Part shown: positions 10,227 through 26,084 of the stretch, one piece after another
Numbering within the stretch: the first letter of the stretch is position 1
Layout: every line of letters starts with the position of its first letter
Origin: Candidatus Pacearchaeota archaeon
GTDB lineage: Archaea; Nanobdellota; Nanobdellia; UBA10117; JAFCGA01
Assembly: GCA_017608345.1 (NCBI GenBank)
Contig: JAFCGA010000001.1
Location: 1 to 33,765, forward strand
Length of the DNA stretch: 33,765 nucleotides
Direction of reading: 5' to 3'
The notes under the pieces: model-generated
Told to the model about the DNA's origin: nothing
What the model saw: the letters and a program-made list of their open reading frames with translations, nothing else
The model's database searches: none
Position numbers and translations under genes: made by a program

Positions 10227-10247
10227 TTATTTCATTTTCTTCGTAAC
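10227..10247 (-). pseudogene. Second copy of the zinc-ribbon gene's 3' end (VTKKMK-stop)
   Basis: On the minus strand this encodes VTKKMK plus stop, the same seven codons that end the gene at 10286, lying 59 bp further downstream. Two codons differ, both synonymously (AAA/AAG and AAG/AAA). The 38 bp between the copies contains the hairpin GACGC-ACA-GCGTC. Another hairpin (CTGCG-T-CGCAG) follows the copy. The match is short, so it rests partly on the three longer cases in this window. Confidence 0.55.
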
Positions 10248-10285
10248 CTTGGACGCACAGCGTCTGAGGTCTAGGAAAAGATGGA

Positions 10286-10678
10286 TTATTTCATCTTTTT
10301 CGTAACGTTAATCTTAAAACCACAAGACTCGCACTCAAACGAGATCGCATCTACGCGAGCTTTTTTACCATTTTCTTTGATGATTGTGACTTTCTTCCGC
10401 TTGAAAGGTACTTGCGTCTCTCCTGACTTTCCGCAAGAAGGGCAAGTATATGCAATGCTAGCGGTTAATGTATCTTCATATTCTTCGCTCGGAATTGATT
10501 TTCCACATGCGCAGATATATTCCTTTGCCCGCATCTTCGGCTTTTTAGGTGTACTGCCACACTCGCACTTTTCCTTGAAAACCCATACTTCTGTCTTACC
10601 TTCCTTCCCGTCTACTATGACAGCTCTGCGAGTATAGTACGCAAGTTCTGACATTGATTTTGGTCTTAGTAATGTCAT
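10286..10678 (-). CDS. Zinc-ribbon protein with multiple Cys pairs (130 aa)
   Basis: At least four Cys clusters are visible: CECG (about residue 38), CACG (about 57), CPSC (about 79) and CESC (about 117). This suggests two zinc ribbons in a small, basic, probably nucleic-acid-binding protein. I cannot name the family; similarity to TFIIS/RPB9-like ribbons is only of the general CxxC type. ATG at 10678 is used; an ATG eight codons later (MSELAYYTRR) is possible. Its last seven codons recur with synonymous changes 59 bp downstream, marking a recoded-tail insertion. Confidence 0.7.
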   Translation of the reverse strand: MTLLRPKSMSELAYYTRRAVIVDGKEGKTEVWVFKEKCECGSTPKKPKMRAKEYICACGKSIPSEEYEDTLTASIAYTCPSCGKSGETQVPFKRKKVTIIKENGKKARVDAISFECESCGFKINVTKKMK

Positions 10679-10748
10679 GGTTTTCAGTTATTTTGTTTGT
10701 TCAAAAAGGTTTCGATATAACTCGGAACTCTGTTCGGAGTAATTCACA

Positions 10749-10957
10749 TGCAGGGGAAGGGATTCGAACCCTCGAAGGCACTAAGCCACAGGATATCTTA
10801 CGAAGTAAGCTACTCGCGGAATCCTTCCGCGTTGTCTTAAGTCCTGCCCCTTTGACCGTTCCCGTACCTTTTCTCTCACCAACGTTCCCTTTCTTTCTTT
10901 TGGCATAGCTTTTCTTTCTTTGGGGAAAGAAAGAAAAGGTATCTCGGGCACCCCTGC
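10749..10957 (-). tRNA. tRNA-Leu (TAA) with a D-loop insertion and an anticodon-loop intron
   Basis: Acceptor GCAGGGG/CCCCTGC, discriminator A, class II variable arm and T-loop TTCGAAT are all present. The anticodon stem CAGGA/TCCTG closes a loop with anticodon TAA once 41 nt (10795-10835) are removed at the canonical 37/38 site. The D stem CCC/GGG forms only if about 83-85 nt (about 10858-10942) between A14-G15 and G18-G19 are also removed. Spliced length is then about 84 nt, normal for tRNA-Leu. The D-loop insertion contains a 13-bp polypyrimidine/polypurine hairpin. A TATA-like TTAAAAAG lies about 28 bp upstream. The D-loop splice sites are not fixed to the base. Confidence 0.88.
10909..10938. 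repeat. 13-bp polypyrimidine/polypurine hairpin in the tRNA-Leu D-loop intron
   Basis: CTTTTCTTTCTTT, GGGG, AAAGAAAGAAAAG on the plus strand. Similar hairpins lie in the tRNA-Asn intron (17793-17818) and downstream of the small membrane protein gene (26437-26461). Confidence 0.85.
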
Positions 10958-11019
10958 ATGATAATAGAACTCTATACTGGCTTTTTAATTGTTTCGGAGA
11001 AGAAAAATAGTATTTATTT

Positions 11020-11403
11020 TTAAATAGTATCTTCGAGGGCGGAATTATTTATTCGGAATTGTTTACCATCAAAAGTACCTTGAAATCTGACTGGTCTTTT
11101 ATGCACTTGAGCACGAGTTAAGCTTATGATCTTGTATATCGCTGTAGAGATAGTTATGCCAAGTTCTGTTGTTTGTGCAGGTATTGTCTCTTTCGCTTTA
11201 GTAAGCTTATTACCCTTTATATCTGCAATCTGGTACTTTAGTATGACTGACGCGCCACTTAAACCTCTAGTAACTATTCCCTGAGAACTCTCGTCGAGTA
11301 CAGGGATTCCAATAATCTCAATTCCTTGATTCAGAAAATCTTTTGGATGCTCATAGATTTCTTTAAGATGCACTCGTTTGTATAGCTCATTCATGTCATT
11401 CAT
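11020..11403 (-). CDS. Uncharacterised protein (127 aa)
   Basis: I do not recognise this protein. It appears soluble and mixed alpha/beta (KEIYEHPKDFLNQGIEIIGIPVL, then strand-rich ASVILKYQIADIKGN). The ATG at 11403 is preferred. A frame extension to a TTG at 11457 would start upstream of the expected transcript start, because a TATATAA box (11461-11469) predicts initiation near 11437. It is divergent from the CaCA exchanger and shares that TATA region. Confidence 0.6.
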   Translation of the reverse strand: MNDMNELYKRVHLKEIYEHPKDFLNQGIEIIGIPVLDESSQGIVTRGLSGASVILKYQIADIKGNKLTKAKETIPAQTTELGITISTAIYKIISLTRAQVHKRPVRFQGTFDGKQFRINNSALEDTI

Positions 11404-11460
11404 GTTAATACTACTATTAATAACTCTTTTAAGACTTATGTTTCGTAGTCTCTGCAAAAT

Positions 11461-25326: not shown

Positions 25327-25374
25327 ATCGAAAATGAAACTTACGATAATTTCCTCACAAGAGGTTCGGAAATA

Positions 25375-25647
25375 ATGGCAAAGCATCAAAACCAGAAAAA
25401 GAAGCAGGGAAAAGCTGGTATGAAAATAGAAACTAGCGATAATGCTTGGGCTGGCGAAGTTGTAGAGATTGCTGGAAAGATTAGTTCTAAACAAGGCGGA
25501 ATGCAAGTTCGTTGTAAGGTTCTGCAAGGTTCAGATGAAGGAAAGATTATGCGAAGAAATGTTCAAGGTCCGATTAAACTTGGCGATATTCTCATGCTAA
25601 AACAGACCGAAATCGAAGCACAAGCGCTTAGGGGCGGAAGGAGATGA
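25375..25647 (+). CDS. rps28e: 30S ribosomal protein eS28 with N-terminal extension
   Basis: The core from about residue 25 (AGEVVEIAGKISSKQGGMQVRCKVLQGSDEGKIMRRNVQGPIKLGDILMLKQTEIEA) is archaeal eS28. The usual protein is about 70 aa; this one has about 20 extra basic residues at the N-terminus. ATG at 25375 overlaps the stop of a 13-codon upstream ORF (TAATG), and an internal ATG (codon 16) is an alternative. The last ten codons are recoded relative to a second copy of the gene's end at 25719-25769, eight of them differing synonymously. Confidence 0.9.
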   Translation: MAKHQNQKKKQGKAGMKIETSDNAWAGEVVEIAGKISSKQGGMQVRCKVLQGSDEGKIMRRNVQGPIKLGDILMLKQTEIEAQALRGGRR

Positions 25648-25718
25648 TCTTCTTAGATAGAAGTCTTTTGGCCTCGGTTTTGCCGAGCTGCGATAAGCTA
25701 ACGAGGGAAAAGCGAGTG
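25648..25718. mobile_element. Structured insert between the two eS28 tails
   Basis: About 71 bp of non-coding sequence. Arms CTTTT..CCTCG (25665-25669, 25672-25676) pair with CGAGG.AAAAG (25702-25706, 25708-25712). A smaller pair CTTCT/AGAAG lies before them and CTCGG/CCGAG overlaps the arm. The mobile label is inference from context. Confidence 0.5.
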
Positions 25719-25769
25719 ATTAAACAGACCGAAATCGAGGCGCAAGCCTTACGCGGAGGTCGTAGATAA
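25719..25769 (+). pseudogene. Displaced original 3' end of eS28
   Basis: Encodes IKQTEIEAQALRGGRR plus stop, the same residues as the functional eS28 end (LKQTEIEAQALRGGRR). After 17 identical nt (25722-25738), eight of ten codons differ synonymously (for example GCA/GCG, CTT/TTA, AGG/CGC, AGG/CGT), and the stop is TAA instead of TGA. Its stop overlaps the eL24 start (TAATG), so this was the original gene end in the operon. Confidence 0.9.
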
Positions 25770-25948
25770 TGCCCAACTGTAATTATTGCAAAGTTGATAT
25801 TCCAAAAGGAACTGGTACGCTGTATATCAAGAAAAGCGGCAAGTTTGCCTATTTCTGCTCATCTAAGTGCGGAAAGAACGCTCTTAAGCACAAGATCAAG
25901 CCAGCAAAAAAGAAATGGAGCGCTAAATTAAAAGTTCCTAAGAAATAA
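25769..25948 (+). CDS. rpl24e: 50S ribosomal protein eL24
   Basis: This 59-aa zinc-ribbon ribosomal protein begins MPNCNYCKVDIPKGTGTLY. Cys4, Cys7, Cys30 and Cys34 bind zinc (FCSSKC). A basic tail ends in WSAKLKVPKK. It is normally the partner of eS28 in archaeal operons. The start overlaps the displaced eS28 stop, so translation may be uncoupled from the functional eS28, which now stops 120 bp earlier. The last ten residues are repeated at 26052-26084. Confidence 0.93.
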   Translation: MPNCNYCKVDIPKGTGTLYIKKSGKFAYFCSSKCGKNALKHKIKPAKKKWSAKLKVPKK

Positions 25949-26051
25949 TTTATTCTGAGTTTTGGCCTTGCTTTTGTGAACTCTGACACGTCGGAAGCAG
26001 AGCTTCCTCGTGCCTTACTTCGTGCTCCGCACTCGCAAGGAAAGCGAGAGT
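25949..26051. mobile_element. Structured insert between the two eL24 tails, with CACGTC hairpin
   Basis: About 103 bp. Outer arms CCTTGC (25966-25971) and GCAAGG (26035-26040) enclose two hairpins: the CACGTC element at 25987-26012 (CACG-TC-GGAAGC, AGA, GCTTCC-T-CGTG) and GTGC-TCC-GCAC (26022-26032). No ORF is seen. The layout matches the aCPSF1 insert: one outer stem and two inner hairpins. Confidence 0.5.
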
Positions 26052-26084
26052 TGGTCTGCTAAATTAAAAGTTCCTAAGAAATAG
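26052..26084 (+). pseudogene. Second copy of the eL24 3' end
   Basis: Encodes WSAKLKVPKK plus stop, identical in protein to the eL24 end. The Ser codon is TCT instead of AGC, a synonymous change that needs several base changes, and the stop is TAG instead of TAA. The other 26 nt are identical. Confidence 0.85.

Follow-up and report, generated by a model that had tools for sequence, protein, structure and literature searches.

Why should the genes of an archaeon be followed, beyond the stop codon and a short insert, by a second copy of their own last codons? The window is a stretch of 33,765 nt from Candidatus Pacearchaeota archaeon, a DPANN archaeon whose genome (here G000) is a metagenome-assembled genome (MAG) of 1.046 Mb in 15 contigs, 88% complete, with 1,066 genes. 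The preliminary description of the window reported four such tail duplications, at a zinc-ribbon gene and at the genes for aCPSF1, eS28 and eL24, and all four were found again at the same positions. In the following, T1 is the upstream, recoded end of a gene and T2 is the displaced copy beyond the hairpin insert. Gene calls are our own codon-usage calls, and all of the genomes are incomplete MAGs.

The aCPSF1/FttA gene (21747–23624, minus strand) encodes a protein with the Pfam domains Beta-Casp, KH_TffA and RMMBL. Its recoded tail T1 (21747–21771) adjoins a 17-nt core (21772–21788). Past the stop codon is a hairpin-rich insert (21627–21746, minus strand), the final 60 nt of which, as scanned, fold at −22.2 kcal/mol, and then T2 (21585–21626, minus strand), with the core at 21610–21626 followed by alternative codons up to the stop. 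The two tails are identical over 17 nt (ACAACTGCTCCGAGAAA); beyond this, 8 of 9 codons differ, and the protein sequence is identical. The eS28 gene (25375–25647, plus strand; Pfam Ribosomal_S28e) has the same arrangement, with its core at 25600–25616 and T1 at 25617–25647. It is followed by a hairpin element (25664–25720, plus strand) with the left end TTTTGGCC and the right end AAAAGCGAGTG, which adjoins the displaced tail. This element matches the covariance model R1, described below, with 72.4 bits (cmsearch, E 2.8e-13), though the sequence is itself part of the R1 seed alignment. The displaced eS28 tail (about 25720–25769, plus strand; core 25722–25738) has a stop codon that overlaps the start of the eL24 gene (TAATG). 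Here too 17 nt are identical (AAACAGACCGAAATCGA), and beyond them 9 of 11 codons, the stop counted, differ without a change in the protein.

The other two loci are less regular. The eL24 gene (25769–25948, plus strand; Pfam Ribosomal_L24e), in which the shared stretch begins at 25922, is followed by a hairpin element of the R1 family (25958–26052, plus strand; 24.6 bits, E 0.018, outside the seed) with a long inner loop. T2 (26058–26084, plus strand) has 26 nt identical to the gene end, save for TAA/TAG, and shows little recoding. The zinc-ribbon gene (10286–10678, minus strand; T1 10286–10306) has a 38-bp insert (10248–10285, minus strand) with a small hairpin, GACGCTGTGCGTC, and no R1 match. 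Its second tail, VTKKMK* (10227–10247, minus strand), has 6 codons with 2 synonymous differences, and this pair is the weakest of the four, its score of 29 being near chance level taken alone. The earlier claim of complete protein identity with synonymous codons stands for aCPSF1 and eS28; eL24 is barely recoded. The proposed 17-nt core is exact in aCPSF1 and eS28, but it is neither a fixed core nor a single target: among diverged pairs, the longest stretch of identity can be as short as 5 nt or as long as 32 nt.

The inner loop of the eL24 element contains a second palindromic repeat, CACGTCGGAA...TTCCTCGTG, which has 21 copies in the G000 genome, 3 of them within predicted ORFs. In the window its copies are at 20467–20504, at 25056–25078 (inside the L7Ae ORF) and at 25987–26012.

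Each gene of G000 was compared with the DNA that follows it, using stop codons as anchors; genes paired at random with downstream sequences served as the shuffled control. With a score of at least 30, there were 21 tail pairs within 600 bp, against 1.0 in the shuffled pairings, and 17 within 250 bp, against 0.5. This is the genome-wide protein-level scan that had been proposed as a check, and it refutes chance as the source of the pairs. Five head pairs reached a score of 30 (0 in the control) and four of these a score of at least 53, though one of the four, C13:27417, is probably a paralogue. The gene at C1:131996–133213, whose product is predicted from the sequence NIGLIGHVDHGKTTL to be aIF2gamma, is affected at both ends: its tail is recoded, and so is its head, which is accompanied by a mirror-oriented element and a displaced head of native type. 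The inserts are thus confined neither to ribosomal genes, of which the preliminary description spoke, nor to tails.

Across this group of very small archaea, hairpin inserts of about 100 nt occur in roughly 2–4% of genes, mostly at the last and sometimes at the first codons. The insert is 25–181 bp long and the unit from stop to stop is 55–220 bp (median 118). In six pairs the copies match completely or almost completely, some with the UTR also duplicated, which fits a same-species donor; the majority of pairs have diverged synonymously.

Most of the inserts in G000 carry one family of hairpins with covarying, compensatory changes in the stem. The first half of the element consists of GGTTTTT(GG/CC), a stem arm (for example CTCG, CCAC, CTCC or CTCA), in many copies a G:G mismatch, and CTTTT. 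After a variable loop come AAAAG, the arm that compensates the first, and about 4 nt, and the displaced copy begins directly behind these. A covariance model, R1, was built from seven G000 hairpins. At E<=10 it had 29 matches in G000; of these, 19 reached E<=0.02, the seven seed copies among them. Nearly all of the strong copies are between recoded and displaced gene ends, and the search revealed new cases at the head of C14:42603, at a head at C14:57718 and at the tail of an apparent ornithine carbamoyltransferase gene. In every gene-end case the right end of R1 is toward the displaced copy, so that the element is sense at tails and antisense at heads.

The ends of the inserts are more structured than intergenic controls (median folding energy −11.4 versus −4.8 kcal/mol, p 7e-10), and the hairpin therefore probably participates in whatever forms the inserts. 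Rfam has no family matching the R1 element; the only hits there were nearby tRNAs and chance-level snoRNA matches. Among 377 other genomes of the class, R1 gave nothing except one weak match in G011 (E 8e-6), and the IMG/VR viral contigs had no match to the exact left-end patterns of the element.

Several tRNA introns of G000 also contain hairpins that look like the gene-end elements read in antisense. In G000, tRNA genes are heavily interrupted, and ARAGORN finds just 15. The tRNA-Leu gene of the window has an apparent bulge-helix-bulge (BHB) intron within the D loop. Interrupted tRNA genes are located at about 10751–10957 in the window (minus strand) and elsewhere in G000 at C2:69750–70060, C2:70100–70480, C14:53540–53900 and C7:15156–15317.

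A scan of 888 kb of relatives' loci, run as a control, returned seven further pairs, exclusively in members of the same order. These come from G378, G005 and G007; G009, which has a contig of the same number and length, is probably the same genome as G378, and G379, with identical match coordinates, the same as G007. Scanned in its own right, G378 has 12 tail pairs in 337 genes (319 kb) and G007 has 9 in 352 genes (320 kb), against 0 in the control for each. The hairpins are lineage-specific: that of G378 has the form TTCTTTTGG(C/A)AACTTACC...AAGAAAAGG, and that of G007 the form (S)GAACC...GGTTC(S). In different families, and with different hairpins, the aCPSF1 and eS28 genes carry inserts at almost identical codon positions. 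The alignment with insert-free relatives that had been called for reveals empty sites at eS28 (in many relatives), at Lhr and at others; in most other relatives the eS28 tail is single and uninterrupted, usually beside the following gene. One insertion, L211, is common to G007 and G016, and its T1 and T2 share species-specific changes in the core, as if the copies had kept recombining. An assembly artefact is unlikely, as inserts appear in three separate MAGs and one insertion is found in two species.

Other features of these genomes may be recorded here. In G016 the aCPSF1 gene has an apparent remnant of a left end after its stop codon. G378 has hairpin copies without an obvious duplicated gene end at C8:17013, C8:56089, C21:21609 and C21:66131, which may go back to older events or be simple insertions, and at C8:19029–20420 (minus strand) it has three consecutive tail copies with hairpins between them, apparently because a single gene end was hit twice, one event nesting within the other. 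G007 has two reverse transcriptase genes (C17:4699–5310 and C26:5949–6566), while G000 and G378 have none.

Which of the two copies is native was addressed by comparing loci of G007 with its congener G016, which is insert-free there, counting sites at which T1 and T2 differ. Since G000 has no close relative, this test rests on the G007 loci and on few sites. Left of the core, the counts of T1-native to T2-native sites were 3:0 at Lhr, 2:1 at the L203 gene, 3:0 at EF-2 and 2:1 at L209. On the right, the counts of T2-native to T1-native sites were 7:4, 2:1, 10:3 and 12:10, respectively, the right side of L209 being gapped. Pooled over the four loci, T1-native to T2-native sites were 10:2 on the left and 18:31 on the right (Fisher p=0.008; p=0.004 without the gapped right side of L209), values that are indicative only, as the exclusion of eS28 was chosen post hoc. 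The eS28 locus of G007 is reversed relative to this rule, and with it included the five loci give p=0.15.

At Lhr and L203 it is clear that the upstream copy is native-left, core and foreign-right, while the downstream copy is foreign-left, core and native-right. EF-2 and L209 are compatible with this pattern, mainly on the right side. The right part of T1 at L209 resembles another congener, G010 (..KET..PSYVG), while the right part of T2 resembles G016 (..VASYIG). At EF-2, the right part of T2 has 30 nt identical to G016, and T1 has the same residues in other codons. The displaced EF-2 copy also carries changed residues (LSERKGR..FE versus IRERKGL..FD); it is decaying.

In the sampled genomes, the rate of synonymous differences by codon, counted from the hairpin side, is about 0.5 adjacent to the hairpin, 0.14 at codon 5 and about 0.5 again beyond it. 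Identical runs of at least 16 nt were present in 17 of 33 diverged pairs, compared to 4.0 after codon shuffling (maximum 11 in 2000). A single crossover in a short shared core with a circular or tandem donor would leave such chimeric copies and such a dip. The preliminary description had elements inserting near gene ends, bringing a recoded end and leaving the host end behind, with neither junction rebuilding the empty site. These points hold, and the right part of the downstream copy is native, as seen in the TAATG overlap with the next gene and in the similarity to congeners. Its comparison with att-type integration gains weight from the crossover mark at Lhr and L203, but needs amending in that the copy beside the hairpin is itself chimeric at those two loci.

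The explanation preferred here, which is about evenly balanced between right and wrong, is that the inserts are small non-coding integrative units that enter by a single crossover within a short identity between host and unit. The unit would be a circle of about 55–220 nt, carrying a structured hairpin and a mimic of the gene end (a short left arm, the core, a right arm running to the stop, and UTR). Integration would be a single crossover in about 5–32 nt over which host gene and unit are identical. The gene would then end in the right arm of the unit, spelled in other codons but with little or no change to the protein, and the host's own right arm would end up past the hairpin, with the left arm of the unit before it. 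Heads would be targeted likewise, with the hairpin in mirror orientation. The architecture, the frequency, the compensatory changes in the hairpin stems, the sites shared across families, the empty sites and the crossover mark at two G007 loci are observed; that the intermediate is a circle, that a recombinase or annealing protein acts in trans, and that the units move between lineages is what we infer in addition.

Several points weigh against it. The eS28 locus of G007 contradicts the chimera rule. Cores of 5–11 nt are hard for ordinary homologous recombination, and double-stranded circles of 55–120 bp would be strained, so that a single-stranded circle or a tandem donor would be needed. G000 encodes two tyrosine recombinases, at C2:144637 and C7:3520, and nothing ties either of them to the inserts; we know of no precedent for one protein addressing dozens of unrelated cores. 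No larger, gene-carrying and autonomous version with the same gene-end architecture was found in G000. No obvious enzyme family explains the inserts, in which the preliminary description saw no enzyme and which it held to be perhaps non-autonomous or decayed. Their hairpin is a structured, lineage-specific repeat.

Some integrative elements sit in an att core at the 3' ends of tRNA and other genes, and the copy that they carry restores function. The inserts differ from these in having no fixed att core and no internal integrase, and in also using heads. The nearest parallel is the e14 prophage of E. coli, which according to PMC11148124 (citing Hill et al. 1989) has its crossover inside the coding gene icd, near the 3' end; its recoded tail of 165 bp has 12 nucleotide exchanges and 2 conservative changes, with the native tail beyond the element. 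The inserts likewise supply a recoded gene end and displace the native end past the element, and as to an e14-type crossover in a core shared by attP and attB, Lhr and L203 show the pattern clearly, EF-2 and L209 are compatible with it, and eS28 contradicts it. However, e14 is a single prophage that encodes an integrase and uses one site, whereas the inserts are gene-free units of about 55–220 bp in dozens of genes, and none of them, at 25–181 bp, holds an integrase gene. Integron cassettes and attC sites, reported in archaea too (PMC9668308), are also small units with a structured, lineage-specific hairpin past a stop codon, but the inserts have their crossover within the gene end instead of at the hairpin, and the RYYYAAC...GTTRRRY boxes of attC are found at the hairpin base in 0 of 39 pairs.

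REP/REPIN palindromes, which go with a RAYT transposase, are short, lineage-specific, non-autonomous hairpins 3' of genes, as the inserts are, but the Y1 transposase (PF01797) of REP and IS200/IS605 elements is absent from the (incomplete) genomes G000, G007, G005 and G378. To our knowledge, no REPs carry gene ends. A diversity-generating retroelement was rejected because there is no PF00078 match in G000 or G378 and the differences are synonymous, not adenine-specific. In the open-licence literature, no description was found of such inserts or of dozens of gene-free units per genome.

The strongest competitor, although still unlikely, does without any dedicated element or enzyme: a foreign gene end would be imported by recombination at a short identity, and its far end, at a stable hairpin, would be joined illegitimately nearby. 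The foreign right part of T1 at L209, the EF-2 T2 that looks native from near its start, the native-like left part of T2 at eS28 of G007, the variable core lengths and the identical tandem copies in G378 all agree with this. Against such an import, the joint between hairpin and T2 falls repeatedly, in three lineages, exactly where a conserved repeat naturally ends on its right side, with no visible loss of host sequence; the left part of T2 is foreign at Lhr and L203; and the same site is hit in different families.

Less probable again is RNA-guided homing in trans, in which a small RNA would have the hairpin as its scaffold and the displaced sequence right after it as its guide; a nuclease would cut uninserted alleles, and repair would bring in a recoded end that resists cutting. 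A common structured scaffold beside many different target sequences, targets that are conserved and essential, and the enrichment of identical runs of at least 16 nt would suit such a system, in which a single enzyme could serve dozens of sites. The TnpB/Cas12f domain (PF07282), however, is absent from G000, G005 and G007, with only sub-threshold matches in G378, though in incomplete genomes (G000 is 88% complete) the absence of an enzyme family is weak evidence. The full core is also often retained in T1, which would then be recut, and in several pairs the identity starts away from the hairpin.

Improbable to a further degree is that the tail was duplicated in tandem long ago and that selection for a regulatory or translational role has kept both copies. 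The reading frames of T2 are intact, and L211, with its concerted cores, persisted through the split of G007 and G016. The preliminary description held plain duplication to be insufficient, and against it are the abrupt switch from identity to near-saturated synonymous divergence, the foreign right arms, the altered residues in the EF-2 T2 and the empty sites in congeners. Scarcely credible is splicing of the insert as a BHB intron by the tRNA endonuclease, with T2 as the exon and T1 as a fallback copy inside the intron: the lineage is apparently rich in BHB-type tRNA introns, some with similar hairpins, but gene junctions fit the strict BHB form in 4 of 15 cases, against 3.4 expected from mismatched pairs, and the element can point either way with respect to the gene, as an RNA splice signal could not.

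Small integrative units that enter by a single crossover remain the preferred explanation, and the inserts suggest a hitherto undescribed kind of miniature mobile element, able to enter essential genes while sparing the protein. A wider proposal, more tentative than the crossover itself, is that they form a new class of gene-end elements: tiny hairpin circles, each mimicking one host gene end, that integrate and excise via one lineage-wide machinery using any short identity, and so shuffle many archaeal gene ends between species with the proteins unchanged. If the preferred explanation is right, a few per cent of genes, including those for ribosomal proteins, EF-2, aIF2gamma and aCPSF1, would have had an end exchanged by gene-free inserts of about 100 bp. 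This would point to a novel recombination activity acting on very short identities plus a hairpin, and would be a natural parallel to the recoded copies that restore an interrupted gene. In DPANN genomes, the annotation of 3' ends and synonymous divergence would be affected. Horizontal transfer would have a new, protein-neutral route, by which gene ends would become phylogenetic mosaics.
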